35,144 nt of DNA from an uncultured Bacteroidia bacterium (GTDB lineage Bacteria; Bacteroidota; Bacteroidia; JANWVE01), in assembly GCA_938028625.1 (NCBI GenBank), contig CALIZB010000022.1:1-35144 (forward strand), in the 5' to 3' direction. Positions 10,375-34,999 of this stretch are shown piece by piece (positions within the stretch are counted from its first letter, which is position 1; each line of letters starts with the position of its first letter). A model generated the notes under the pieces. It was not told the DNA's origin, made no database searches, and saw only the letters and a list, made by a program, of their open reading frames with translations. A program made the translations under genes and the position numbers.

Positions 10375-12360
10375 CTATTTTTTAGGTTCTTCCTTTTTAG
10401 GTTCTTCATTTTCGTTAGGTTTAACGGCTTCTTTTTTGCCTTTACCTTTCAAAAACTCTTCTTTTTTCTTTTTCTCCATTTCTCTATCACGTACATACAG
10501 TCTGTATAGACGTTCTCTTTCATTGAAGTTGGTATAGTCAGGGTTTATGCCTATCATACCGTCATAGTTGTAATGTAGAGTGTTGGCAGAATTCTTTTCT
10601 GCAAGGGACTGCACATAATGAATAAGATACCATTTGTATAGCTGTGCGCGGTTTGTCTTTTCGTATTCAGGAAGAGAGTCAAACTGTTTTTTAGTGGGGA
10701 GTTTTTCTAAAAATCCTTTGACAAGTTCTACATCTTCTTTGGAGAACATTGCTTTACCTTGATTATTCACTGCAGTTGCAAAAGAGTTCAGGAACTCATC
10801 AGAAAGAATACTCTTTGTAATTACCATGAAGTTTGCATCAGCATATACAGGCATAGGGCCACCTGCGATACCTGCGGTTAAATGTCTATACAATGACCAT
10901 GAGTCTCCACCACCTTTGAATATACCATTGTTATAGTTAGCGATTTTGAGTTTTCCGCCCCATGCATCTAAACTTGCATGAAAGCTATATTGGTCTGCGG
11001 CTGAACCGTCTGCATGTCCTGCACCGCCATGACACTGCCAGCACTGCTGAATGATATACACGGCACGTCCCATTTTTTCAGTTTCGCGTGTGCGAGCAGG
11101 TTCATTTTCAGGTACAATAACCTTTTTACCTGGTTTTTCTTTGGCATAACGGGGTGAGAAAGTTTTAATATAATCAATTACATACCATTTGTCTACATCT
11201 GTCATTTTGTAGCCTACGGTATGGTCATGCCATGAAGGCATAGATGAACCTGCAAGACCTTTAACCAAACTGCGATAAATATCCCAATCTAATGGTAAAG
11301 AAGAGGCATCAGTAGAGCGAAATTTATAGATACCTTGTTCAAAATAGCGAGCTTTGGGTTTTAAGAATGGGTCTGCGGGTCCGTTAAAGTAAACCATGAA
11401 TTCGCCTTTACTTTTGTTTTTCTTCATTTGAAGCGTATCCCACCATTCTTTTGGTCTTGGAAGCATACCACGATATTTGAAATAAATGTTTTCTACATTA
11501 GGCATGAATATAGCCTGCTTAAACCATGAAAAATCAAACTTCTGGATATTCACTTCTAATTGTTTTAACTTAGTTTCACTCACATACATATCTATATCGC
11601 GGAGATAGTATTGTGCATCTAACTTGCGCCCTTTGTTGTTAGGGTCTGGTTCTACATCAGCTACTTTATCTGCAATTACCATTCTGCCATGACAACCTGA
11701 GCATTTGTTTTCAAAGATAACTTTACCTTTCGCAATTCTTACGCTGATAGGTTCGGAAGTAATAGCTGTGGGAGTAGCTATTTCTGTACCTGTGGGGACA
11801 TTGTAGTTTCTCCACTCACCGATGTCTTTACCTAATCTTTGCATGTAGGCAAGCAACGCCGCACCGTCGGCGTTCATTTTAGGCACACGTTCTCCGTCTG
11901 CATTAAGTTCTGTACCTTCAAACAGCCATGTAAAAGAAGGCATTAAACTTTGAGGTACAGTATAACGAGGATTATAGAAGTGTGCAATATGCCAATCATC
12001 AGTTCTTTTGCCGCCTTCACGTGTCAAATCTGGTCCGATACGGCGAGTACCAAACGTATGAGGTCTATCAAAAGCATACTCCCCTTCTTGCGATACAGGT
12101 CCGTAGTAGGCATTTTCATTGATAGTAGGGCGTACAAACTGAGAATGACAGTACCAACATCCTTCCCGCAGATAGACCTTACGACCTCTTGCTTCTAATT
12201 CTGTATAAGGATGAGCATAGACCTTTTCACCTTTGTAGTTAATAAGTTCATCAGTTTGAGTACCTTTTAAAAACATAGGTAAAATCAACTGTATTCCTAC
12301 TGCAAGCAAGAAAAAGCCTACGCCACCTACTAATGCTATTGTTTTAAGTCTTTCTAACAT
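10375..12360 (-). CDS. ccoO: CcoO-like cbb3 oxidase subunit fused to two further cytochrome c domains
   Basis: Membrane-anchored c-type cytochrome that should pass electrons to the oxidase catalytic subunit. Residues 8-31 are a transmembrane anchor. Residues 55-180 match CcoO/FixO: REGCWYCHSQFVRPT (haem motif 68-72), RRIGPDLTREGG, and the Met ligand in QSLMPSF. Two extra class-I cytochrome c domains follow, with CSGCH at 220-224 (later SSMPSW) and CWQCH at 440-444 (later GGPMPV). The middle domain has an insertion of about 100 residues without recognised motifs. The tail is very rich in Lys and Glu. There is no second membrane anchor. Three haems in one chain equals the CcoO plus CcoP total, and no separate ccoP is present. 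It is the last gene of the operon, 29 bases after ccoN. Confidence 0.88.
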   Translation of the reverse strand: MLERLKTIALVGGVGFFLLAVGIQLILPMFLKGTQTDELINYKGEKVYAHPYTELEARGRKVYLREGCWYCHSQFVRPTINENAYYGPVSQEGEYAFDRPHTFGTRRIGPDLTREGGKRTDDWHIAHFYNPRYTVPQSLMPSFTWLFEGTELNADGERVPKMNADGAALLAYMQRLGKDIGEWRNYNVPTGTEIATPTAITSEPISVRIAKGKVIFENKCSGCHGRMVIADKVADVEPDPNNKGRKLDAQYYLRDIDMYVSETKLKQLEVNIQKFDFSWFKQAIFMPNVENIYFKYRGMLPRPKEWWDTLQMKKNKSKGEFMVYFNGPADPFLKPKARYFEQGIYKFRSTDASSLPLDWDIYRSLVKGLAGSSMPSWHDHTVGYKMTDVDKWYVIDYIKTFSPRYAKEKPGKKVIVPENEPARTRETEKMGRAVYIIQQCWQCHGGAGHADGSAADQYSFHASLDAWGGKLKIANYNNGIFKGGGDSWSLYRHLTAGIAGGPMPVYADANFMVITKSILSDEFLNSFATAVNNQGKAMFSKEDVELVKGFLEKLPTKKQFDSLPEYEKTNRAQLYKWYLIHYVQSLAEKNSANTLHYNYDGMIGINPDYTNFNERERLYRLYVRDREMEKKKKEEFLKGKGKKEAVKPNENEEPKKEEPKK

Positions 12361-12389: not shown

Positions 12390-13907
12390 TTATTTTTGTA
12401 TAGTTTGTTTTAGTTCAAGTAAATCTTCTATCTCCTTGGTACGTTGTTTAGGCTCTATGAAGTCATCAGTAGGATTAGAAACTTTCTGACCTTTAACAAC
12501 TGTGAGCACAATATTAATAGCATAAAGTATCTGACTAACATCAGAAAGCCAACCAAAGAAAGTTCTCATTTCCCAGAAATGAACCATAGCAAACATAGAG
12601 TCTACAAAATCAATACCTGATGCCCACATCTGACCTTGTAAAGGACCTTGGAAAGTAAGTACTGCAAGCATACCTGTTAAGCCAATTACAGTAAGCCACC
12701 AGTGCCAATCTGCAAGTGCTTTGCTGTATAAGCGTCTGCCTGTAATACGAGGAATAACATAGTATCCTCCTGCGGAGATAAATAGAATAAAAGCACCGTA
12801 GGTAGCCATGTGTGCATGCCCTACCACAAAGTCTGTAAAGTGTGTTAAATCTTGCACAGCACGAAAAGCCTCTAATGAACCTTGTAGAGAACCTAAGAAG
12901 TACCAAAACGCGCCGAGCAATAGAAATCTAACTGCATGATTTTGATTGAATCTTTTCCAGTTACCTGTCATAGTACCGTAGAAATTTTGCGTTACAGTAA
13001 GTACAGGCACCATAAGTAACCATGAGGTGGCAATTGCCACGTCTTGTACCCAAATAGGAAGGGGTGCATATAAATAGTGATGCGCACCTACAAATGGATA
13101 TACTAATGCAATTGTCCAAAATCCTATCAGAGAAAGTTTATGACTATACAGTGGTCTTTGTGCTGTAAGAGGTAGAAAATAATAAATAGTAGCAATACCA
13201 CCAGGAGTAATAAGAAGCCCTACGGTATAATGTAAATAAGCACCATGCAGGTTCATGTTATCTATACCTGTAGTAAAATTTGGAATAATCACATAACCTA
13301 GCACAAGGTTCATAGATGCCCATATCACACACACGGATAGATACCATAGCGTTACATACATTTTCTCTTCTTTACGAGTAATAATAGTAGTTAATACTGT
13401 TACAGCAAACATTACAAATGCTACAAATAGAGGAATAGATGCGTAAGGACCTAAATCTGCTACTTCAATGCCTGTGTTATCTCCTATCATTACAGAAATA
13501 AAACCAACAATTAAAGCTAAATTCCATAGGATAAAAATACCCCAGCCCATTCTTGGTCCGAATGCCATACGTCTCCCTGTGAGTTTGGGTACCATGTAGT
13601 AAGCTAAACCCATAAGGAACGTACCAAAGCCTGCTAGTGCCATACCAGAGGTATGTACAGCACGAAATCTGCCAAAGTGCGTCCACATAGAGTGTCCGAA
13701 CCAAGGCGCATGAAACTTCATAGCTAAGAACCAGCCCGCCGCTTGCACAATTCCCAGCCATACTGCGGCAGTAACCACAAAAGCAAGCACTATAGGTCCG
13801 TCTATCAGTTTTACCTGAGGTAAATCCGCAAATACTGACGAGAGTGTGCCTGAGTTTGTTTTCTGCTCTTTGATATCTGTTTTAATAAATGCTTTTACTG
13901 TACTCAT
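12390..13907 (-). CDS. ccoN: C-family (cbb3-type) haem-copper oxidase catalytic subunit
   Basis: Reduces O2 to water at a haem b3-CuB centre and pumps protons. The 505 residues form about twelve membrane helices. Ligands can be placed: His85 (low-spin haem, AVHTSG), His226 and His276-His277 (CuB, YLHYTVG and VGAHHYLY), His364 and His366 (VGHAHMATYG) for the two b haems. Tyr270, six residues before the His pair (ALVYPFVGAHH), matches the cross-linked tyrosine of C-family oxygen reductases, and nitric oxide reductases lack it. Around His226 the usual WWYGHNAVG is replaced by GAYLHYTVG, so this is a divergent member. The partner subunit gene is immediately downstream. Confidence 0.92.
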   Translation of the reverse strand: MSTVKAFIKTDIKEQKTNSGTLSSVFADLPQVKLIDGPIVLAFVVTAAVWLGIVQAAGWFLAMKFHAPWFGHSMWTHFGRFRAVHTSGMALAGFGTFLMGLAYYMVPKLTGRRMAFGPRMGWGIFILWNLALIVGFISVMIGDNTGIEVADLGPYASIPLFVAFVMFAVTVLTTIITRKEEKMYVTLWYLSVCVIWASMNLVLGYVIIPNFTTGIDNMNLHGAYLHYTVGLLITPGGIATIYYFLPLTAQRPLYSHKLSLIGFWTIALVYPFVGAHHYLYAPLPIWVQDVAIATSWLLMVPVLTVTQNFYGTMTGNWKRFNQNHAVRFLLLGAFWYFLGSLQGSLEAFRAVQDLTHFTDFVVGHAHMATYGAFILFISAGGYYVIPRITGRRLYSKALADWHWWLTVIGLTGMLAVLTFQGPLQGQMWASGIDFVDSMFAMVHFWEMRTFFGWLSDVSQILYAINIVLTVVKGQKVSNPTDDFIEPKQRTKEIEDLLELKQTIQK

Positions 13908-13931: not shown

Positions 13932-14852
13932 TTATCTGCCTGCAATTTCAAAGTTTAACTCTGTTTTAGCGCCTGGTTTAATTTCAATTTCTTTCTCTAC
14001 TACATAAGGAGGCTCAAAAGTATAAGAATAATCTCCATTATCTTTTTTCTCTTTACTAGCAATTTTATAGCCTTCATGCCATGCACGAATTTTATATTTA
14101 CCAGGAGGAATATCTTTGATTTCAAAGTTTCCGTTATTGTCTGTAAGTGCATTGTAAGGGTGATTTACACCAATAAAATAAGCATTCATCCAAGTGTGTC
14201 CTGCATCACATACCATAGGGAAAATACCAGTTTGAGTAATTTCTTTTACAATTTCCTGGTCTTTCAAAGGCATAGCTTCATTAAATAAGTTATTGGACTT
14301 TCCTTCGTCTGAATAGGCATGTACGTTATGTAGAATAGGGTCGCTATTTTTAAGTTTAGCTTTTGCACCTACAGTTACCAACTGAATGTGAGGATTGTAA
14401 AAACAACCTTTCTGGTCAAGCACAACGTCTTTTTTCTCAGGCGCTTTACCTTTGGAAATATTCACGATAGAAATCCATGTATTTGCTAGACCGTTGCCAG
14501 GACCTACCACAATTCTGTCTGATTTAATTTTTCCACCTTTGACACCACATTTGTCTGCGTCTTTAACTACTACAAAATCTTCTACAGAAGGATCACCCTT
14601 AAAGGTAACTTTACCCGAGAGTGAACCACCATTTTTAACTTCTTCAATGGTATAGTCCCCAGCTACAATTTCAGTAGTACCTCCATCGCCGCCTGTATTT
14701 TCTGAACCACCTTTTTTCTCACCCTTATTTTCTAATGCTGTTTTAAGAGAATCTGCGTTACCTGTAACCAGAGGTTCTCTTACTGTTTTGCTTTTACAAG
14801 CAACAAGACTAACTAAACTAACTGCGATTGCGAAATTGATTATATTTTTCAT
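13932..14852 (-). CDS. Lipoprotein cupredoxin with carboxypeptidase-regulatory-like domain
   Basis: A secreted 306-residue lipoprotein (lipobox SLVAC, Cys19) with a Gly/Glu-rich linker. The central domain looks like a type-1 copper fold: a His in SDPILHNVHAYS, and Cys, His and Met closely spaced in PMVCDAGHTWMNAYF, the classical ligand order His...Cys...His...Met. The last 100 residues hold a beta-sandwich of the carboxypeptidase-regulatory type (NNGNFEIKDIPPGKYKIRAWHEG). Lying between the octahaem cytochrome and the oxidase genes, it is a good candidate for a copper electron carrier or a periplasmic link; this is inference. The ATG at 14852 is chosen over the TTG at 14864. Gaps to its neighbours are 85 and 24 bases. 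Confidence 0.8.
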   Translation of the reverse strand: MKNIINFAIAVSLVSLVACKSKTVREPLVTGNADSLKTALENKGEKKGGSENTGGDGGTTEIVAGDYTIEEVKNGGSLSGKVTFKGDPSVEDFVVVKDADKCGVKGGKIKSDRIVVGPGNGLANTWISIVNISKGKAPEKKDVVLDQKGCFYNPHIQLVTVGAKAKLKNSDPILHNVHAYSDEGKSNNLFNEAMPLKDQEIVKEITQTGIFPMVCDAGHTWMNAYFIGVNHPYNALTDNNGNFEIKDIPPGKYKIRAWHEGYKIASKEKKDNGDYSYTFEPPYVVEKEIEIKPGAKTELNFEIAGR

Positions 14853-14937
14853 GTTTAATAACAAAAATTGATTTTACATTGCTTCATTTATGTTTCACTG
14901 AACGGGCAGAAGCGTACCCGCTCAGTGCTTTTATATA

Positions 14938-17900
14938 CTATCGGTTACGTTTATTCGGTTGTTTTTTAGGCTGAGAATTTTTATCATTAGCTTTAGCCAT
15001 ATCAGCGTTATTCATATAGAACAAATAGTCTCTGATAGCTTCACCTTGATATCTTGCCATAGCTTTTTGGTCCATTCCGAGTTTTGCGAGATTACTGTCT
15101 GGTACAGCTGTCATGGTATACCCTTCGCCGAAATAATTAGGCATATTTACACCAGGCATGAGACTTGCGGGCCAACCTATCCATTCGTAGATATATTGTG
15201 GCTTTAAGCGTTCGTAAGCCATGCCTAAGTTAGGGGCAAGTTTTCCTGCTTTGGTTTGTTCTTCCATAGAAGGTCCGTTGATGTAATGACAACTTACACA
15301 CTGGAATTTCTCAAAGAGCGCTTTACCCATAGCGACTTTCTCAGGAGTAGTCTGTACATTTTTGTAGTTTTCATAGTTTACGTGTTTTTTCTTGATAGCA
15401 AGGAAGTAGCGAAGCGCGTAACCCCATTCTTCGTCAGAGTGTTGGAAAGAAGGCATACGTACCTTAATCCAGGGTCTTATCCCATGTCCATCAAGTTTTG
15501 GATTATTAAAGAATTTGAGCAACCAGTCTTCCTGTGTTTTGATACCTTGATGCGTTAATAGAGGAGGTCTGTTAGCGGGTTCAGTGATTTGTTGGTGAAT
15601 ATAAGCTCCTTTGTAATCCTCAATCTGATGACAGCCGATACAGTTGTTATCTCTTACGAAATACTGACCTGCATCATAATTGGCAGTAAGGTCATCATAA
15701 TGAGGCTGGTACTGTGGGCTAACCTTACGGTTTGTCCAACCCTTGATAGCCACAGCAATAGCTTCTACTTCTGTTTCATTAAGACCAAAGTTAGGCATCA
15801 TAAGTGGAATACGGTTTGTAGAATACTGTCTTGGGTCACGTATTTTACCTTTAATCCAGCCTTCCCAAGTGTGTCCTACATTATAGTGGTCTCCACGTAC
15901 TGTGTTTCCAAAGTCAAACTCGTGAGAAGTTTTATCTGCTTCTTCGGTTAGAGATACGCTTACGTTAGTGAGCTTGTTAATGTCTTCACGGATATTGTGG
16001 CATCCATAACAACCCAGCATTTTAACCATTTTCTCGCCGTTAGCAATGTTGTTAGCGTCTTTTAATGCCGCCATATCCACAGGCTTGAATTTTTGTTTAT
16101 CAGACTTTTTGAGCGTCATTAAATACGCTGTAATATCTGATGCTTCTTGCTCTGTTAAGCGCAAACTTGGCATTTTAGTTTCAGAATAATAATGTTTTGG
16201 ATTGATTAACCAATCAAATAACCAGTCCTCATTTACTTTTGTACCCACTTTGTTTAGGTTAGGTCCAAAGCCTGCACCTTCACGTAAAGCAGGAGTTTTG
16301 GAGATAGCCGCCCAGTCCACTTTGTCTACACTGTGGCAACCTGTACAACCAATTTGAAGCGTTAGAGATTTTCCGTTAGCTACATCGCCTTTACCAGGAT
16401 ATTTAAGCGGTTTGTAAGTGGTGTCTTTATCTGTTAAACTGCTAAGAAATGCGGTGATATTACGTGCATCTATTTCTTCCAGATAGAAATTAGGCATTTT
16501 GGTGTGGGGATAAAAATCCTTCGGATTAAGTAACCAGTTGTACACAAATTCAGGGTTATCTTTTTTCATTACATAGGCAAGGCTTGGACCCACTTTGCGT
16601 ACAGGATATTTTTCCTGATTAGGAAGTGCATGGCATCCGTTACAACCAAGGTCAAATACGAGTTTTTTACCAAGGGAAACCGTTTCACCCATAGGTAGGT
16701 TAATTGCTGTGCTATGACAGCTCTGACACCCTGATTCTACAAATTTACCTTGTACCAAAGGTCTTTCCCAATGATGGTCATAGTCAGGTTCTCCGTGGCG
16801 AGAGTGTGCATGAGAGGCTTTCAAAGCTCTACCCTGACCTGCATGGCAGCTGGTACAACCTATTTTCTCAATATTGTGTACCTTCATAATTTCAGGACTG
16901 TGATATTGCAAGGGGTCTTTACGGATAGCGAGTTTATTACCGGATACTTTCACTTTACCTTTGTTATGTTTAGCTACTTCTTCAAGGATTTTTTTCTGTT
17001 CTTCGGGTTTTTTGGCTTTGTATTCATCTGAACTTACTTCTGTGTGGAACTTCCAGTGCATTTCGGCAAACTCTTCATAAGTAACTTCCTTAAATTGACC
17101 TTTATAGTATTTTTCGCTGAATAAAGAGTCATTCCAAGCGGCATGACAACTTTGGCAACGGTCTACGTCCATGTTGTACTCTCCGAAGTTATTGGTGCTG
17201 TAGTTACGCATAATTACCTGATGCACCTTTACTTTTTTCTCATTATAGGCTTTTTTGGCAGTTTCTATGGCTACTAATTTGCCTTTCAGGCTTTCAATCT
17301 TGGCGTCAAGTTCATTGATGATTTTTTCGTACTTATCTAACTCTGCTTTTTTTTCATCACGTTTTTTGCGTGTTTCTTCTACCTGTTTGGTCTTGCCTTC
17401 TATCTGAACTTTATAGTTATCTAATTTAGCCTTAATTTTATTGGCTGTACCAAAATCATTCTTTTTAAGCGCTTCGGTATATACGTAGTAATCCTGAGAG
17501 TCATAAGCCTTGATATCTGCCAGTTCTTTGCTAAATTCACGCAACTGGGTAGCTAATTTGAAATAGTCATCTGAAAGTTTTACATACGCAGGATATTTGC
17601 GCAAAGAGTCTTTAGCACGGGCTTTTGCACTTTCTAACTCTGCTAATCTTTTACGAAATGCTTCACCGTTTTTGATTTCTACAGCGTTACGAAGAGAGTC
17701 TGCAATTTTTAATCCTGTGGCTTTGTATTCGTTTGTCCACTTTTTCCATGGACGACGTTCTCTACCTGAAAATTCATTAAAAGCCGCGTAAACAGTAGAT
17801 AAAAAAAGTAAACCTGAGAAAAGCATGTATACTGTAGCATAATTACGCGTTTCTACAGGGTCCTTGGCAAGTCCACGGATATTACGCCAGCTCATTTCCT

Positions 17901-17982
17901 TCATAGCAATCTTGACATCAGTACCTAACTGAGCAAGACTTTCGCGAATGTTGTTTCCGATATTTTTGAAAAATGTCTTCAT
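14938..17982 (-). CDS. Membrane-anchored octahaem cytochrome c with long coiled coil
   Basis: A 1014-residue protein, transmembrane near residues 48-68, followed by a coiled coil of about 160 residues (90-252, Lys/Glu-rich) that would hold the haem part away from the membrane. Eight CxxCH motifs follow, at about 276, 376, 419, 447, 546, 658, 781 and 895. The first three lie in a His-rich region (HAHSRHGEPDYDHHW) and probably have bis-His haems. Each of the last five is followed by an MP motif (KMPNF, KMPSL, MMPNF, RMPSF, NMPNY), the mark of class-I His/Met domains. It probably collects electrons from the Rieske/cytochrome b complex and hands them to the oxidase. I know no standard name for this architecture. 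Confidence 0.88.
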   Translation of the reverse strand: MKTFFKNIGNNIRESLAQLGTDVKIAMKEMSWRNIRGLAKDPVETRNYATVYMLFSGLLFLSTVYAAFNEFSGRERRPWKKWTNEYKATGLKIADSLRNAVEIKNGEAFRKRLAELESAKARAKDSLRKYPAYVKLSDDYFKLATQLREFSKELADIKAYDSQDYYVYTEALKKNDFGTANKIKAKLDNYKVQIEGKTKQVEETRKKRDEKKAELDKYEKIINELDAKIESLKGKLVAIETAKKAYNEKKVKVHQVIMRNYSTNNFGEYNMDVDRCQSCHAAWNDSLFSEKYYKGQFKEVTYEEFAEMHWKFHTEVSSDEYKAKKPEEQKKILEEVAKHNKGKVKVSGNKLAIRKDPLQYHSPEIMKVHNIEKIGCTSCHAGQGRALKASHAHSRHGEPDYDHHWERPLVQGKFVESGCQSCHSTAINLPMGETVSLGKKLVFDLGCNGCHALPNQEKYPVRKVGPSLAYVMKKDNPEFVYNWLLNPKDFYPHTKMPNFYLEEIDARNITAFLSSLTDKDTTYKPLKYPGKGDVANGKSLTLQIGCTGCHSVDKVDWAAISKTPALREGAGFGPNLNKVGTKVNEDWLFDWLINPKHYYSETKMPSLRLTEQEASDITAYLMTLKKSDKQKFKPVDMAALKDANNIANGEKMVKMLGCYGCHNIREDINKLTNVSVSLTEEADKTSHEFDFGNTVRGDHYNVGHTWEGWIKGKIRDPRQYSTNRIPLMMPNFGLNETEVEAIAVAIKGWTNRKVSPQYQPHYDDLTANYDAGQYFVRDNNCIGCHQIEDYKGAYIHQQITEPANRPPLLTHQGIKTQEDWLLKFFNNPKLDGHGIRPWIKVRMPSFQHSDEEWGYALRYFLAIKKKHVNYENYKNVQTTPEKVAMGKALFEKFQCVSCHYINGPSMEEQTKAGKLAPNLGMAYERLKPQYIYEWIGWPASLMPGVNMPNYFGEGYTMTAVPDSNLAKLGMDQKAMARYQGEAIRDYLFYMNNADMAKANDKNSQPKKQPNKRNR

Positions 17983-18006: not shown

Positions 18007-18924
18007 TTAAAAGTTAATCCATGGGGTTGAAAGCACATATTTTACATCTAATGAAAGTCGTAAAATAATTTTGATAGGCATTGTCATACAGGTAAGCACA
18101 AAAAACGAAACTGTACCGTAACGAAGTGGTCCTAATTTTTTAACAATATCTTTGTCTTTTGTAGCACGAGGAAGCACTACTTTTCTCAAGAGAATATCAC
18201 CACCAACATAATAACCCACAATGGAAGCCAAACCAATAACCACATGCCCTATATTCATAGAACCGTCTACGTTCTTGGCAGGAAACTTGCCAAAAAGTTC
18301 AGGCCAGTCCCTGCTGTTTGCCGCAACCACTTTATGAGCGTCCCACTCTTCCCAAGGGAAAAAGAAGTTCCATCCTGGTCCTCGTAACAACGTACCCAAA
18401 ATTATCAGAAATACCCACAAGATTAAGAAACCGAACAGGAAAAAACCAATAGCAAAACGGCGTTCTTTCCATGTATAGTACCCGTTTCCTTTTGGATTTA
18501 TATCCACGTAAGGAATAGCCATCAGACCTGCTTGGATTAAAAACGGAAATACTATTCCTGCTAACCATGGGTCAAAATATACCAACATTTCCTGCAAACC
18601 AAGGAAGTACCAGGGGGCTTTTGACGGGTTAGGTGTCCTGCCCGGATTAGCGGGTTCTTCCAACGGTGCATCAATACCTACACTCCAAACTGTAAGAATA
18701 AGAATAACTACAACAGAGGTAAGAAACTCGATTCTTACCAGATATGGCCATACTTGTACACGGTCAGTCATACTGGCTTCAATAGGCGTACCTAAACGGT
18801 CATTACGCGTAGCTTTACGCATAGACTGCCATGTATAGAATATTACTAGCCCTAACATACCAATAATAGGTACATTGTCAGGTAATGAAACTAAATGCCA
18901 AAAATTCTTTAAACCTTCTTGCAT
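18007..18924 (-). CDS. Cytochrome b C-terminal subunit (subunit IV-like, extended)
   Basis: Second half of a split cytochrome b, completing the quinol-oxidising site with the b6-like subunit. The protein has 305 residues with about six hydrophobic segments. The Qo-site loop reads KAPWYFLGLQEML, where mitochondrial cytochromes b have PEWY; the APWY form resembles that of several menaquinol-oxidising bc complexes. A soluble loop (WEEWDAHKVVAANSRDWPELFGKF) and extra C-terminal helices make it longer than plant subunit IV (about 160 residues). It lies 41 bases after the cytochrome b gene and 24 bases before the octahaem gene. Confidence 0.9.
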   Translation of the reverse strand: MQEGLKNFWHLVSLPDNVPIIGMLGLVIFYTWQSMRKATRNDRLGTPIEASMTDRVQVWPYLVRIEFLTSVVVILILTVWSVGIDAPLEEPANPGRTPNPSKAPWYFLGLQEMLVYFDPWLAGIVFPFLIQAGLMAIPYVDINPKGNGYYTWKERRFAIGFFLFGFLILWVFLIILGTLLRGPGWNFFFPWEEWDAHKVVAANSRDWPELFGKFPAKNVDGSMNIGHVVIGLASIVGYYVGGDILLRKVVLPRATKDKDIVKKLGPLRYGTVSFFVLTCMTMPIKIILRLSLDVKYVLSTPWINF

Positions 18925-18965: not shown

Positions 18966-20111
18966 TTAATGATGATGGTCGTTATTGTTATGATTGTTGT
19001 TATGGTCAGGATTGTCATGATGCTCATCATGAGAATGAGAGTCGTCCCCACCTTTGATATTTTGCTCAGCCGCCTGGTCAATAGCGTTAATCAGATTAGA
19101 AAGTTTCTTACTTGTTTTTTGTTTAAGAGTATCCAAGTCTTTTTTAACTACTTCCTTAAAACTTTCCTCTCCTTCTACTTGCTTAAAGCCTTCAACGTAT
19201 TCATATTTAGGTAAATGCTCTACCACCGAAACTTTAAGTTTGCTTGCGTCTGTAACAGCTTTATTAAATTCAATCATTGGGGGACCTGATATACCGCCAT
19301 CTTTACGAATACGCCAGAAATGTACCGCCAAAAGTACTGCGGTTACAATGGGTAAAAATACAGTATGTAATACATAGAAACGTAATAGTGTAGGTGCGCC
19401 TACTTCTGTACCACCAAGTAAAATAAAGCGAACGTCTGCATCAGGAGCACCACCAAAACCTACCAACTGATGAAATTCAGGTGCAAAAGGTCCTGCGTGT
19501 CCTAAGAAAGGTACGGCACGTGCCATGTTAGAACCTACGGTAATAGCCCATATTGCTAACTGGTCCCAAGGTAAAAGATAACCTGTAAATGATAACGCAA
19601 GCGTTAAAACCAGCAGGTTAACACCAATTACCCAATTAAATTCACGGGGAGGTTTATATGAACCTGTTAAAAACACTCTATACATGTGTAGCATTACACA
19701 AATAACCATAGAGTGTGCCGCCCAGCGGTGCATATTACGTATGAAAGCACCGAAAGGAACATCATGCATAAGTTGTTTCATGTCATTATAGGCGTACTCA
19801 GAGGTAGGTCTATAATAGAACATAAGCAATATACCAGTCACAGCAGTTACGATAAAAAGTAATAACGTAATTCCACCCATGCCCCATGTATAGCCCACGT
19901 CTATGGCGTGCCTGCTTACACGTGTAGGGTGCAAGTGAAGAAACACATTATTAACAATTTGTAAAGCACGATTGCGTTTGTTGTCTTTGTAGTCATGGCG
20001 GAATATAGAAGTATAGATTTGTCCTTCATAAAACTGCTGTGCCAAATCTTTTTTACCTCCGTCTGCCTTAACTACTTGTCTTTTATTAGGTACTTTAATG
20101 ATGTCTGACAT
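18966..20111 (-). CDS. Cytochrome b6-like subunit with His/Asn-rich tail
   Basis: Haem-b-carrying core of the quinol:cytochrome c oxidoreductase. Four membrane helices contain the two bis-His pairs: MHRWAAHSM with VMLHMYR, and YVLHTVFLP with AVHFWRIRK. The [16 protein letters not shown] loop and [14 protein letters not shown] are typical of the b6 type. The Cys that binds the extra c-type haem in b6f (FYCLGGITL) is replaced here (WGMGGITL), so no such haem is expected. After the fourth helix comes about 100 residues of charged extension, ending in a low-complexity tail rich in His, Asn and Asp ([11 protein letters not shown], then NNDHHH). The role of the tail is unknown; metal binding is possible. 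Confidence 0.93.
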
Positions 20112-20157: not shown

Positions 20158-20748
20158 TTATCCTTTATATGGTAAAAATGCGCCTGGTTGATCCCATTGT
20201 CCTTTTTCTCCAAGAAAAACAATAGCTTTATTGATACTGATTTGCCCGTCGCTTTCCAAAGTAATTTTAAATCTTTCCAAAGGTCTTGGTGCAGGTCCTT
20301 CAAAATTTACAGCTGTTTCCTTAGGGTCAGCCATAATTCCATAGAAGCCGCTTCCGTGACAAGGACATTTAAACTTGTTTTCAGCAGGAAGCCATCTTGG
20401 TGTACAACCCAAATGCGTACATACAGTACTTTGTGCAATAAACCCATCTTTGGTACGGATAATCCATACTTTTTGAGTGGATTTAAACCGCTCATCTACT
20501 GTACCAGGTGTGTACTCACTTGGAAAACCCGCTTTAAACGATTTTGAAGGCTCATAAATAGCACGGTTAAACAAGCCTCTTACAGAACCGAAAACAAACA
20601 AACCAAAGTAACCAAAAAATGCACCCCAAGCTATTTTGCTCAAGAAACTTCTCCGATTACCAAAGTATAAATGTTTGTCTTCTTCCACCACTTTTTTTGT
20701 AGATGCAGAATTTTCTGCTTTTACTACTTCCTGTGTATTTCCTGCCAT
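20158..20748 (-). CDS. Rieske 2Fe-2S subunit
   Basis: High-potential iron-sulphur protein that takes the first electron from quinol at the Qo site. Both cluster boxes are complete: CTHLGC (110-115) and CPCHGSGF (128-135), with His112 and His131 as nitrogen ligands. The N-terminus has a twin-arginine motif (NRRSFLSK) before a single hydrophobic segment (about 38-57), as expected for Tat-dependent membrane insertion with an uncleaved anchor. Length 196 is usual. The gene starts 23 bases after the 4Fe-4S gene and ends 46 bases before cytochrome b. Confidence 0.95.
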   Translation of the reverse strand: MAGNTQEVVKAENSASTKKVVEEDKHLYFGNRRSFLSKIAWGAFFGYFGLFVFGSVRGLFNRAIYEPSKSFKAGFPSEYTPGTVDERFKSTQKVWIIRTKDGFIAQSTVCTHLGCTPRWLPAENKFKCPCHGSGFYGIMADPKETAVNFEGPAPRPLERFKITLESDGQISINKAIVFLGEKGQWDQPGAFLPYKG

Positions 20749-20771: not shown

Positions 20772-21095
20772 TTATTCTCCGCTTAAATTACCTGCTGTTA
20801 ATAAAACCCCACGCTCCGCAATCTCTTCATCTTCCAGAATCGCTTCTTCAGGCACTAATTCTCTATTAAACATCTGAATTACGTCCCAAGGGCAAGGCTT
20901 GGCACACCATGCACAGCCCGTACACTGCAACAAATCTACCTGACAAATAGATGACACCATGGGGTCATCTGAAAACGGATTAGGTACTTTGATGATTGCA
21001 TCAAATTCGCAGAATTCCATGCACACCATACAGCCTGTACAACCCGTAGCGTCTATTACTGCTACTCTTTTTGATAATCTGTCTATTTTACTCAT
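20772..21095 (-). CDS. Two-cluster 4Fe-4S ferredoxin-type protein
   Basis: A 107-residue protein with two complete 4Fe-4S motifs, CTGCMVCMEFC and CTGCAWCAKPCPWD, each followed by an acidic or aromatic turn. It has no signal peptide or membrane helix, so it should be cytoplasmic or attached to the inner face of the membrane. It is the first gene of the respiratory operon. A bc complex needs no such subunit, so its job is unclear. It might feed electrons into or out of the complex, or assist assembly. The ATG at 21095 is preferred to the TTG at 21101. The C-terminal 30 residues are acidic. Confidence 0.85.
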   Translation of the reverse strand: MSKIDRLSKRVAVIDATGCTGCMVCMEFCEFDAIIKVPNPFSDDPMVSSICQVDLLQCTGCAWCAKPCPWDVIQMFNRELVPEEAILEDEEIAERGVLLTAGNLSGE

Positions 21096-21234
21096 AATCA
21101 ATAAATTTAAATTGTTTTGAAACTTTTTGCTTATTCTAAAATCTTCCTACTCATGCAAATTACTATATCATTTTTCAAATATCAAAACTTACTTTACATT
21201 TTATATAACATTTTTTGTGTGTTAGAGTTCTCTA

Positions 21235-28864: not shown

Positions 28865-29008
28865 TGTATTTTTTAAGACCCTTGTAATACATGCTCGCAT
28901 TCATGCGTCTGTAAAAATATTCATGTTTTATCTTTCTTAGTTCTTATAACCTTGCAAAAGGATTATCTAATCTGCCAATTCCTAAATTGTAAAATACTAA
29001 TTCCCATC

Positions 29009-32000
29009 ATGTTATCCAAAATCATAGAATTTTCTGTAAAAAACAAATTGTTAGTTATTGTAGGAGTACTTGGACTGATTCTGTACGGAAGCTACGAACT
29101 GACCAAACTCCCCATAGATGCTGTACCTGATATTACTAATAATCAAGTACAGATAATTACGGTAGCCCCCGCTTTTGGCGCCCCAGACATAGAACGTTTA
29201 ATTACTTTTCCCGTAGAACAAAACTGCCGCAATATCCCGAATATTGTAGAAATGCGAAGTTTCTCACGTTTTGGTTTATCTTTGGTTACTATTGTATTCA
29301 GTGATGATACAGATATTTACTGGGCAAGGCAACAAGTTAATGAAAGATTAAAATCTGCTCAAAAAGAAATTCCTGACGGCATAGGTACGCCTGAACTCGC
29401 ACCCGTAACTACAGGATTAGGCGAAATTTATCAATATCTTGTAAAACCCAAAAAGGGTTATGAAAACAAATACTCTCTCACAGATTTGCGTACTGTTCAA
29501 GATTGGATAGTCAAAAGACAATTAGCAGGTATAAAAGGTGTAGCTGATGTGAGTAGTTTTGGTGGTTTAGTCAAACAATACGAAATTGCTATTGAACCCC
29601 AAAAATTAAATGCTTATCAACTCTCTATCAGTGATATTTTTGAAGCATTGCATAAAAATAACGAAAACACTGGTGGTGCATACATAGAAAAAAATAACAC
29701 GGTTTTATTTATCAGAACAGAAGGTTTAGTAAAGTCTGTAGATGAAATAAAGCAAATTGTAATCAAAAATACGCAAGAAGGAATACCTGTTTTAATTAGA
29801 GATGTTGCAGAAGTAAAAATAGAAAATGCTATACGATATGGTGCATTATCTTACAACAATGAGAGTGAAGTAGCAGGTGGCATTGTGATGATGCTCAAAG
29901 GAGAAAATAGCAGTCAAGTAATCAAAAATGTAAAAAAACGCATAAACGAAATACAAAATAATCTGCCTAAAGGTTTAGAAATTGTACCTTACTTGGACAG
30001 AACAAAAATGGTTAACGCCGCTATTCATACGGTATCCACAAATTTAATGGAAGGCGCATTGATTGTAGTATTTGTACTAGTATTGTTTCTAGGCAATTTA
30101 AGGGCAGGGATAATTGTAGCTTCGGTCATACCGCTTTCTATGCTTTTTGCCATAATAATGATGAATACTTTTGGTGTAAGTGGTAATTTAATGAGTTTAG
30201 GTGCATTAGACTTTGGATTGATTGTAGATGGTGCTGTGATTATTGTAGAAGCTGTTTTACATGGTTTAACCCATAACAAAATTTTTACACAGCTTACTAA
30301 AATCACTCAGCAAGATATGGATAATGAAGTAAAACATACTTCTACACGTATGATGAACGTAGCTGTATTCGGACAGATGATTATTCTCATTGTGTATTTA
30401 CCTATATTCACTTTGCAAGGTATAGAAGGCAAAATGTTCAAACCGATGGCACAAACTGTAATATTTTGCCTTATAGGCGCATTTATTTTGTCTTTAACCT
30501 ATATTCCTGTAATAACTTCTTTACTCATTTCCAAAAAGATACAAAGTAAAATCACTTTTTCAGACCGTATGATTGCATGGATAAGTAAACAACATCAAAA
30601 ACTATTACGGGCTTGCTTACGATTTTCTGTGCTTTCTGTGAGTGTAGTATTTACTTTATTTGTTTTTTCTGTGTTTTTACTTACTCGTTTGGGGGGAGAG
30701 TTTATTCCACAAATTCCCGAAGGCGATTTTGCCGTAGAAACTCGCTTGCTTAAAGGAAGTAACCTAAATACTTCGGTACAAACTTGCCAGCAGTCTGCCA
30801 AAGTATTATTAGAACATTTTCCTGAAATTGAAAGAATTGTGAGCAAAACAGGAAGCGGCGAAATTCCCACAGACCCTATGCCAATGGAAAATTCAGATAT
30901 GATGGTTATCTTGAAAGACAGACGAGAATGGAAATCTGCAAAAACATGGGAAGAACTTTCTGAAAAAATGCACCAAACTTTACAAAATAATATACCTGGT
31001 GTATCTTACAGTTTTCAGTATCCCGTAGCTATGCGATTTAATGAACTAATGACAGGCGCAAAACAAGATGTAGTCTGTAAAATATTCGGTGAAAATTTGG
31101 ATACTCTCTCTAAATACGCAAAAAAACTTGGGCATATCGTATCAGACATCAAAGGAGTAGAAGATATTTATGTAGAACCCATAGACGGCTTACCACAATT
31201 GATTATTACCTATAAACGTGAAGAACTCGCCAAATATGGTATTGCTGTTCAGCAGGTCAATCAAATTATCAATACAGCTTTGGCAGGACAGAGTGCAGGT
31301 ATGTTATATCAAGATGAAAAACGGTTTGATATTGTAGTACGCTTAGCCAAAGAACAAAAACAAAATATAGAGCAGATTAAGAACTTACTTGTTAATACTC
31401 CAAACGGCACACAAATTCCTTTATACCAAATTGCTGACATAGCAATTAAAGAAAGTGTTAATCAAATTCAGCGGGAAGAAGCTAAACGCAGAATTATTGT
31501 GGGCTTTAATGTAAAAAACCGCGATGTACAAAGTGTAGTACAGGAAGTTCAGCAGGATGTACAACAAAAATTAAAACTGCCCTCAGGCTATCATATTACT
31601 TACGGTGGTGCATTTGAAAATTTAGAAAGTGCTAAAAAACGGCTTATGTTAGCTGTTCCTGTGGCTTTATTACTGATATTCTTTTTGTTATACATGACTT
31701 TTAATTCGGTAAAACAAGCAATTTTAGTGTATTCAGCTATACCGCTTTCGGCTATTGGAGGGATATTCTTTTTATACATGCGAGGTATGCCGTTTAGTGT
31801 AAGCGCAGGAGTAGGTTTTATTGCACTTTTTGGAGTAGCTGTACTTAATGGTATTGTTTTGATTAGTGAATTTAACCGTTTGAAGAACAGTGGTATACAA
31901 GATATTTATACCATTGTTCAGGAAGGTACACACATACGCCTGCGCCCCGTACTTATGACGGCTTTTGTAGCTTCGTTAGGTTTTTTACCTATGGCAATCA

Positions 32001-33358
32001 GCAAAGGTGCAGGGGCAGAAGTCCAAAAACCATTAGCTACCGTAGTTATTGGAGGTTTGCTTACCGCAACATTTTTAACTTTAGTTATTTTACCTGTACT
32101 CTATATATGGGCAGAGAAATTTACACTCAAAAAGCACGCAAAAACTGCATCTATATTCATTATAGGACTATTATTTTCACAAAACACAAACGCCCAAACC
32201 CCTATCTCACTCAAAAATGCCATAGATACTGCTCTAAAACATAATCCTCTAATACAAGCTCAAAATTTGCAAACCGAATATCAAAAATCTTTGCTTAAAG
32301 CCAGCTATGATATTCCTAAAACTAATTTTTCTTTTGAATATGGGCAGATAAACTCCATTTATCAGGATAATCGGCTTTCGGTTATGCAAAGTACGGCTTT
32401 TCCTACCTTGTACAGCAAACAAAAAAATCTTGAAAAGATACAGACCCAAGAGCAAGCCCTAAAAACCGAAGTTGTCAAAAAAGAAATTACACGCAAAATA
32501 AGCGAAGTATTTTATCAGCTCGCGTACCTGTATCAAAAACGGATTTTATTACAAAAAATAGATACTTTACTCAATGAAGCCAATCAAAGAATACAGCTCA
32601 AATTTACCAAAGGCGATGCGAATACATTAGAAAAAACTACCGCAGAACTACAAAAATACACAATACAAATGCAATTACAGGACGTTGAAAACGAAATTCA
32701 GAACACTCAAAAAACTTTTCAGTATTGGCTGAATAGCTCACAAAACTATATTCCTGAACCTGTTTCCTGGGCAAATACTCCTATTTTAAGCCCGCAGGAT
32801 ACAGCAAAATTACACACACACGCACAAATACAAGTATTACAACAATCTCTGCGTACCGCACAGGCTAAAATCAAAATAGAAAAACACAAGTTTTTACCTG
32901 ACTTCTACGCGGGGTTTTTCAATCAGACTTTGCAAGGTATGGGTGCAGATGATAAATTCTATACGCGCAGCACACGTTTCACTTCATTTCAGATAGGAAT
33001 AGGTATTCCTCTTTTTTATACTGCTCAAAAAGCAAAGCTTAATGCGGCAAAAATACAATACCGTATTACACAGCAAAAATACAGTATCGGCATAAAAGTA
33101 TTTCAAAATGAATACAATATAGCATTCAATACATATCAACGAACTCTGCAAAAAGTACGCACCTGGAACGAAAATATCCTGCCCAAAACAAAAATCATGC
33201 TCAGCCAAGCTAATCAGCAATTAAATGCAGGAGCAGTAAATTATACAGAATGGGTTATATTAGTACAACAAGCTACTCAAATGCAGTTAAACTATTTAGA
33301 GGATGTCAGAACATTATACTTTTCTTTAACCGAATTACAATACTATCAAACGAATTAA
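29009..33358 (+). CDS. czcA: CzcA/CusA-type heavy-metal RND pump fused to a TolC-like outer-membrane channel
   Basis: Proton-driven efflux of divalent or monovalent metal ions across the envelope. Residues 1 to about 1040 are a full HME-RND pump: opening SKIIEFSVKNKLLVIVGV, LPIDAVPDITNNQVQ, and helix-4 acidic residues in LDFGLIVDGAVIIVE that carry protons. After the last helix comes a signal-peptide-like segment (about 1043-1063, ending NTNAQ), then a TolC/CzcC-like region of about 385 residues with long helices (NAIDTALKHNPLIQAQNL) and repeats. The ATG at 29009 is used because the pump begins there; the track's earlier start adds 19 odd residues. The metal cannot be assigned with certainty. 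The adaptor gene follows after four bases. Confidence 0.93.
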   Translation: MLSKIIEFSVKNKLLVIVGVLGLILYGSYELTKLPIDAVPDITNNQVQIITVAPAFGAPDIERLITFPVEQNCRNIPNIVEMRSFSRFGLSLVTIVFSDDTDIYWARQQVNERLKSAQKEIPDGIGTPELAPVTTGLGEIYQYLVKPKKGYENKYSLTDLRTVQDWIVKRQLAGIKGVADVSSFGGLVKQYEIAIEPQKLNAYQLSISDIFEALHKNNENTGGAYIEKNNTVLFIRTEGLVKSVDEIKQIVIKNTQEGIPVLIRDVAEVKIENAIRYGALSYNNESEVAGGIVMMLKGENSSQVIKNVKKRINEIQNNLPKGLEIVPYLDRTKMVNAAIHTVSTNLMEGALIVVFVLVLFLGNLRAGIIVASVIPLSMLFAIIMMNTFGVSGNLMSLGALDFGLIVDGAVIIVEAVLHGLTHNKIFTQLTKITQQDMDNEVKHTSTRMMNVAVFGQMIILIVYLPIFTLQGIEGKMFKPMAQTVIFCLIGAFILSLTYIPVITSLLISKKIQSKITFSDRMIAWISKQHQKLLRACLRFSVLSVSVVFTLFVFSVFLLTRLGGEFIPQIPEGDFAVETRLLKGSNLNTSVQTCQQSAKVLLEHFPEIERIVSKTGSGEIPTDPMPMENSDMMVILKDRREWKSAKTWEELSEKMHQTLQNNIPGVSYSFQYPVAMRFNELMTGAKQDVVCKIFGENLDTLSKYAKKLGHIVSDIKGVEDIYVEPIDGLPQLIITYKREELAKYGIAVQQVNQIINTALAGQSAGMLYQDEKRFDIVVRLAKEQKQNIEQIKNLLVNTPNGTQIPLYQIADIAIKESVNQIQREEAKRRIIVGFNVKNRDVQSVVQEVQQDVQQKLKLPSGYHITYGGAFENLESAKKRLMLAVPVALLLIFFLLYMTFNSVKQAILVYSAIPLSAIGGIFFLYMRGMPFSVSAGVGFIALFGVAVLNGIVLISEFNRLKNSGIQDIYTIVQEGTHIRLRPVLMTAFVASLGFLPMAISKGAGAEVQKPLATVVIGGLLTATFLTLVILPVLYIWAEKFTLKKHAKTASIFIIGLLFSQNTNAQTPISLKNAIDTALKHNPLIQAQNLQTEYQKSLLKASYDIPKTNFSFEYGQINSIYQDNRLSVMQSTAFPTLYSKQKNLEKIQTQEQALKTEVVKKEITRKISEVFYQLAYLYQKRILLQKIDTLLNEANQRIQLKFTKGDANTLEKTTAELQKYTIQMQLQDVENEIQNTQKTFQYWLNSSQNYIPEPVSWANTPILSPQDTAKLHTHAQIQVLQQSLRTAQAKIKIEKHKFLPDFYAGFFNQTLQGMGADDKFYTRSTRFTSFQIGIGIPLFYTAQKAKLNAAKIQYRITQQKYSIGIKVFQNEYNIAFNTYQRTLQKVRTWNENILPKTKIMLSQANQQLNAGAVNYTEWVILVQQATQMQLNYLEDVRTLYFSLTELQYYQTN

Positions 33359-34522: not shown

Positions 34523-34644
34523 TTTGGGCGTGTCTTTCACTGCGTTCAGGTCAGCATGATGAGTGCCACATAACGCGGTGATTGAGCAACACCGTCATTG
34601 AGTGGTTTCGGCATAGTTCGGTAAGCTCACTAAATGTATGCGAA
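34523..34644 (+). repeat. GC-richer interspersed repeat, copy 2
   Basis: Starts TTTTGGGCGTGTCTTTCAC, 18 of 19 bases identical to the repeat copy after corA, and continues GTTCAGGTCAGCATGAT (closely matching GTTCAGGTCGGCGTGCT there), with the CTTCGGCAAGCTCAGG section missing. The rest (GCGGTGATTGAGCAACACCG, TCATTGAGTGGTTTCGGC) is related to fragments elsewhere in the window. It directly borders the transposase remnant. Confidence 0.55.
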
Positions 34645-34653
34645 GTATTAACA

Positions 34654-34999
34654 AAAATAACCTGCTTTCATTGTCATAGTACGAAAGTAGTTAAAAATGG
34701 TCATAAAAAAGATGGGACACAAAATTTTTTGTGTAAATCTTGTCATAAACGGTTCAAAAGCTATACAAAATGCTTAAAAATCTTCAAATTGATGAGTATT
34801 GTAACGGATAACAGGACTGTTTTTACTTCAAGTATTTGCAAAGGAAAATTACCAAGTGGCAAAACATCTTACTCGTGCTATTGAAGGGGTCAATAATGCT
34901 TTAAGGATAAGAAATAGACGCCTTGTACGAAAAACTACTTGCTTTTCTAGAAAAGATGAGTGCCACGAAGCCACTATGGTTCGGCAGGTGATACAGTGA
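34654..34999 (+). pseudogene. Decayed IS1-family transposase
   Basis: Two pieces of one transposase in different frames. The 5' piece (about 34654-34761) encodes an InsA-like zinc ribbon, CFHCHSTKVVKNGHKKDG followed by FLCKSCHKRFKS. The 3' piece (about 34829-34999, frame shifted) encodes an InsB-like C-terminus, AIEGVNNALRIRNRRLVRKT followed by TCFSRKDE. The catalytic middle of the protein is missing, so it cannot transpose. The track's 100-codon ORF from 34582 joins the zinc ribbon to unrelated repeat sequence and is not a real gene. A 12-base direct repeat (GATGAGTGCCAC) occurs at 34558-34569 and 34955-34966. Confidence 0.7.

Follow-up and report, generated by a model that had tools for sequence, protein, structure and literature searches.

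An octahaem cytochrome c as probable counterpart of cytochrome c1/f in a b6f-like complex of Bacteroidota and green sulfur bacteria

The 35,144-nucleotide stretch of DNA analysed here (the window), from an uncultured Bacteroidia bacterium, encodes an intact octahaem c-type cytochrome of 1014 aa (14938..17982, minus strand). This protein is very probably the c-type subunit of a b6f-like complex III, standing at the position of cytochrome c1 or f, feeding a copper protein and/or the oxidase subunit CcoO, and carrying long helices folded as a hairpin. Its gene lies in a minus-strand operon with the order ferredoxin, Rieske protein, cytochrome b, subunit IV, octahaem cytochrome, copper lipoprotein, CcoN and CcoO. 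Because of this gene context, and because no other cytochrome b complex of this family, no NrfD-type gene and no other haem-copper oxidase were found in the genome, the octahaem protein is best read as the proposed counterpart of cytochrome c1/f.

The operon was headed by a dicluster 2[4Fe-4S] ferredoxin of 109 aa (20772..21101), followed by a Rieske [2Fe-2S] protein (20158..20748), a cytochrome b6-like subunit (18966..20111) and a PetD-like subunit IV of 305 aa (18007..18924). The Pfam matches to Rieske, Cytochrome_B and Cytochrom_B_C were all above their cut-offs, as in a Rieske/cytochrome b complex. The canonical motif of subunit IV is PEWY; APWY replaces it here. In a phmmer alignment Gly 77 of the window cytochrome b fell on Cys35 of spinach b6, and Gly was found at this position in nine of nine aligned relatives; judged from this alignment, the haem-cN cysteine of canonical b6f is missing. 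In place of the mono-haem cytochrome f or c1 of canonical b6f/bc1 complexes there was a protein with eight CxxCH motifs. The cytochrome b also had a His-rich C-terminal tail (23 residues) that its aligned relatives were without.

Downstream of the octahaem gene were a type-1 copper (cupredoxin-like) lipoprotein with a His-Cys-His-Met pattern and a CarboxypepD_reg domain (13932..14864), CcoN (12390..13907) and a CcoO-like subunit with three CxxCH motifs, assigned by Pfam and motif scan (10375..12360), again all on the minus strand. The copper ligands were kept in 11 neighbouring copper proteins. CcoN was assigned from Pfam, a COX1 search and PDB matches; it scored below the curated ccoN cut-off (229.8 vs 583 bits), and its PDB matches at E <= 1e-10 were five, all cbb3 subunit I, so that by sequence it is a divergent cbb3-like subunit. 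Between the octahaem and copper-protein genes a stem-loop was observed (14896-14927; window intergenic, -22.6 kcal/mol). In the two other genomes of the genus this gap also contained stems, but their sequences differed; an Rfam search of the stem-loop gave no match.

The hydropathy profile of the octahaem protein contained a sole hydrophobic segment, a single transmembrane helix at about residues 48-68 (17779..17841). Residues 1-47 hold nine Lys/Arg and five Asp/Glu by charge count, and the N terminus is predicted to lie on the cytoplasmic side. By motif scan and alignment, the haem motifs are CQSCH at residue 276 (haem 1, 17143..17157), CTSCH at 376 (haem 2, 16843..16857), CQSCH at 419 (haem 3, 16714..16728), CNGCH at 447 (haem 4, 16630..16644), CTGCH at 546 (haem 5, 16333..16347; within a Pfam Cytochrom_C match at 534-625), CYGCH at 658 (haem 6, 15997..16011), CIGCH at 781 (haem 7, 15628..15642) and CVSCH at 895 (haem 8, 15286..15300). 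All 16 Cys of the protein are used by these eight motifs. In 2000 shuffles of the protein the mean number of CxxCH was 0.0055 and the maximum one. The eight motifs and one membrane helix described in the earlier note were thus confirmed, and the Cys and His of all eight motifs were invariant in 28 of 28 homologues, drawn from Bacteroidota and from green sulfur bacteria. Pfam recognised cytochrome c domains and gave weak multihaem matches besides; the search of a plasmid collection returned a short class-I cytochrome match alone.

Three further His residues, 361 (16900..16902), 369 (16876..16878) and 393 (16804..16806), were invariant in the alignment of 28 homologues and are candidate distal ligands. 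The Met residues of four MP motifs (496, 604, 729 and 843) were also invariant. A scheme of three bis-His and five His/Met haems agrees with the three extra His, assigned to haems 1-3, and with the MP Met of haems 4-7. This scheme, proposed in the earlier note, holds for the window protein, which has a fifth MP Met (947) for haem 8; it does not hold family-wide, as Chlorobi-type sequences have another residue at position 947. Both the ligation and the stoichiometry of the haems are inferred here from sequence. The same ligands bear on the idea that the protein is a multihaem reductase or oxidase of the nitrite, hydroxylamine or tetrathionate type, a role known for octahaem cytochromes from other families. 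Each of the eight motifs is an ordinary CxxCH, the protein is linked to a quinol-oxidising complex, and at least seven haems have a candidate distal ligand that is invariant or nearly so, which makes a haem with a free catalytic site improbable. With these candidate ligands conserved, the enzyme reading was rejected as most improbable.

Between the membrane helix and haem 1 lies a helical region of about 180 residues that ends shortly before haem 1 (residues 79-259, 17206..17748). The coiled coil expected from the first inspection of the sequence, at 160 residues, was borne out, as these residues were helical in AlphaFold2 (AF2) models. An AF2 run on the fragment 40-300 with three sequences placed one helix at fragment positions 92-134 and another at 138-224; pLDDT was 92-95 in fragment blocks 101 to 170, which flank the three-residue break; the full-length model, also from three sequences, had a mean pLDDT of 36 and was uninformative. 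Across the 28 homologues, arm 2 (K184-Q255) was exactly 71 residues in every one, arm 1 (W79-Y166) was 83-91 residues, and the tip between the arms was 11 to 18 residues. Insertions and deletions gathered at this tip, and residues 174-184 (17431..17463) were the site of most length change. Sequence identity in the arms was only 23-26%. When averaged over an alignment of ten representatives, the hydrophobicity of arm 2 had a heptad period of 3.50 residues, reached by none of 2000 permutations; the same test on the single octahaem sequence was not significant. The best Foldseek matches were for the most part to long coiled coils, SMC arms and chemoreceptors among them (best E 0.011, none significant at 0.001).

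The fixed length of arm 2 and the indels at the tip point to an antiparallel hairpin rather than an outward stalk. The helical region is most likely such a hairpin, with the chain returning to its base, as read from a fragment model used without inspection of its coordinates, indel statistics, weak Foldseek matches and the heptad period. A hairpin that folds back would keep haem 1 close to the membrane. The linear stalk was rejected on the indel pattern, and the earlier suggestion that the haems are set far into the periplasm is not supported. An insertion of 63 to 90 residues between haem 1 and His 361 was specific, among the 28 homologues, to the window's lineage and one further locus (L003).

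A wire towards the outer membrane had also been suggested, and eight haems on one chain can cover a long distance. The Ext system of Geobacter sulfurreducens (PMC5877670) offers a model for such extracellular electron transfer: the window has a related cytochrome b, a related subunit IV and a related four-haem segment (haems 2-5 of the octahaem protein). In NCBIfam searches cytochrome b matched ExtP (279.5 vs a cut-off of 290 bits), subunit IV matched ExtQ (54.7 vs 150 bits) and residues 367-619 of the octahaem protein matched ExtS (63.4 vs 100 bits). All three fell below the curated cut-offs, and by this measure the proteins are not members of the Ext families. ExtS is a four-haem lipoprotein, whereas the window protein is an octahaem cytochrome. 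An outer-membrane porin and separate cytochromes with 5, 10 and 12 haems belong to the ext cluster (PMC5877670); a search of nine genomes, that of the window included, detected no MtrB/PioB porin, and a porin-cytochrome conduit was accordingly not recognised in them. A genome-wide codon scan for CxxCH gave 268 matches vs 190 in the reversed control and was noisy; among the matches listed (100 of 268), clusters of three or more were found on the window contig only. With oxidase genes within the operon itself and a hairpin that would lead the chain back to where it started, it is very unlikely that the protein serves as a wire to the outer membrane or to acceptors outside the cell.

Homologues of the octahaem protein (E <= 1e-20) were found in 24 of 198 sampled genomes of the phylum. 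The window's order consists of one genus with three genomes, all three of which contained the gene, and two further named records carried it: the MAG 'Bacteroidia bacterium isolate SKYG108' (90%) and 'Bacteroidetes bacterium RIFCSPLOWO2_12_FULL_37_12' (46%). It was also present in 33 of the 86 genomes sampled from a family with a gene for the FMO protein (FmoA), a family taken for that reason as Chlorobiaceae. In the open-access literature searched, no description was found of an octahaem complex in this FmoA-encoding family.

In total, 14 loci were examined for gene context. Rieske, cytochrome b and subunit IV genes clustered with the octahaem gene in 13 of them. The exception was genome G222, in which ferredoxin, Rieske, cytochrome b and petD genes were on contig C8 and the octahaem gene on contig C17, with one of each found; this separation from the complex III genes is a point against the c1/f reading. 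The ferredoxin gene was likewise present in 13 of 14 loci (absent from L035), and a copper protein was near the octahaem gene in 13 of 14. Pairwise distances of octahaem and cytochrome b sequences were correlated across 14 taxa (r = 0.90, a figure that ignores shared ancestry). In three other genomes (G055, G004 and G120) an A-type (COX1) oxidase followed the same operon, while the Chlorobi-type loci had a mono-haem cytochrome gene after the octahaem gene and no adjacent oxidase. One octahaem-bearing Chlorobiaceae genome (G010) was searched for a further cytochrome b of a different type, and one was found. There it was part of another Rieske-cytochrome b pair (L059:8733-9970, cytochrome b ORF of 426 aa), which indicates that two different complexes coexist in this genome. 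Genome G055 also had a second Rieske/cytochrome b operon (L060:6847-11972), with a 5-haem ORF. Just upstream of its Rieske gene was a 639-aa ORF resembling a GltD-type FAD oxidoreductase, an arrangement that recalls the anammox complexes.

The window's genome is a 99% complete draft in 170 contigs, in which absence is no proof. Within it a single match to the window cytochrome b was obtained, no NrfD-type (alternative complex III) gene was found, and the one COX1 family match was located in the octahaem operon. From these counts the operon appears to hold the only complex III and the only haem-copper oxidase of the genome. The octahaem gene lies between the genes of complex III and those of the oxidase, and together with the COX1 oxidase after the operon in three other genomes this placement lends gene-context support to the earlier proposal that the protein bridges two complexes.

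In its most direct form such a bridge would be a III-IV supercomplex in which the octahaem protein passes electrons straight to CcoO and replaces both cytochrome c1 and mobile cytochrome c, with the copper lipoprotein as an accessory. The shared operon of complex III, octahaem cytochrome and the only haem-copper oxidase found agrees with this arrangement. Besides the operon proteins, moreover, the genome gave one Pfam CBB3-type match, which covered a mono-haem domain and lay in a predicted membrane protein, so that a mobile c-type carrier may be missing (as judged by the CBB3-type profile). Against it, the copper gene directly follows the octahaem gene, 13 of 14 loci keep it nearby with intact copper ligands, and the Chlorobi-type loci have a mono-haem cytochrome gene and no oxidase in the corresponding place. 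Direct transfer within a supercomplex is possible on this evidence but doubtful. Judged from the gene order, the acceptor from the octahaem protein is most likely the copper protein and/or CcoO.

Octahaem-bc operons of a similar kind are already published for Nitrospina, Kuenenia and Methylomirabilis. In Nitrospina gracilis an 'atypical octaheme cytochrome c' lies beside a split b6f-like operon, and the same was stated for Kuenenia and Methylomirabilis (PMC3578206). The split cytochrome b operon of the window matches this published anatomy, with the octahaem protein compared by description only. Compared in the same way, Nitrospina and the window have in common a Rieske protein, a split cytochrome b and an octahaem cytochrome as the only c-type subunit by operon. 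Nitrospina differs in belonging to another phylum and in being a nitrite oxidiser, whose complex was discussed for reverse electron transport (PMC3578206).

In the complexes of Kuenenia, cytochrome f is replaced by 'a hexa- or octaheme cytochrome c' (PMC12954380). The Kuenenia complex Kustd1480-1485 and the window operon share a split b6-like cytochrome b, a subunit IV with extra helices and a large multihaem cytochrome c (PMC12954380). The closest solved relative of the window Rieske protein in a PDB search was Kustd1480 (9rk3, E 2.6e-40, vs 2e-20 for Kuste4569), and a Ser/Phe pair near the cluster was common to the two. By analogy, Kustd1485, which has long helices wrapping around the complex in the AlphaFold3 model of its authors (PMC12954380), may be the Kuenenia counterpart of the window octahaem protein. 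Where the window has the 109-aa dicluster ferredoxin, the Kuenenia complex possesses an additional NAD(P) oxidoreductase that carries Fe-S clusters. Haem cN was included in the Kuenenia model, but at the Cys35 position the cytochrome b of the window, like that of its relatives, has Gly. A cupredoxin is present in the window operon but is not mentioned in the Kuenenia paper (PMC12954380). The b6f complex of cyanobacteria and plants is alike in its b6-type cytochrome b with subunit IV and its Rieske protein; in contrast to it, the window operon has no cytochrome f, no haem-cN Cys35, an octahaem cytochrome c instead, and a subunit IV of 305 aa. New here are the distribution in Bacteroidota and Chlorobi, the linkage to ferredoxin, copper protein and oxidase genes, and the absence of the haem-cN cysteine.

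With the octahaem protein as the c1/f counterpart, quinol would be oxidised at the Qo site in a Q-cycle, one electron passing to the Rieske cluster and the other through the b haems. The Rieske cluster would reduce an octahaem haem near the membrane, and the electron would move along the haem chain through three putative bis-His haems and then five class-I-like haems. From there it would pass to the type-1 copper lipoprotein and/or the three-haem CcoO, and the cbb3-type oxidase would reduce O2. The hairpin probably lies along or around the complex and may help to hold it together. On this reading the complex III of the window's Bacteroidia order would be identified, an order in which no NrfD-type alternative complex III was detected, and a path from quinol to O2 would be packed into one operon.

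The conserved ferredoxin may be a cytoplasmic-side subunit, in which case electrons would be exchanged among quinol, a high-potential octahaem branch and a low-potential ferredoxin. The complex would then bifurcate electrons to ferredoxin, or ferredoxin would reduce quinone. This proposal is tentative and rather unlikely. It draws on the presence of the gene in 13 of 14 loci, on the weak similarity of its product to the ferredoxin tail found in a GltD-like NAD(P)-binding protein, and on the FAD-oxidoreductase-like ORF beside the second operon of G055, and it parallels the NAD(P) proposal for the anammox complexes. If it were true, green sulfur bacteria could use the complex to return electrons from ferredoxin to menaquinone in a cyclic flow. 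The homologues assembled here allow comparative work on why a mono-haem c1/f gave way to eight haems and a long hairpin, and on whether the complex, with its linked ferredoxin, does more than run a Q-cycle.

Elsewhere in the window, a single reading frame of 1468 aa (28952-33358) joined an AcrB-type efflux pump to an outer-membrane efflux (OEP) domain. A 100-aa ORF with two CxxCH codon patterns (34582-34884) was noted as a putative gene.
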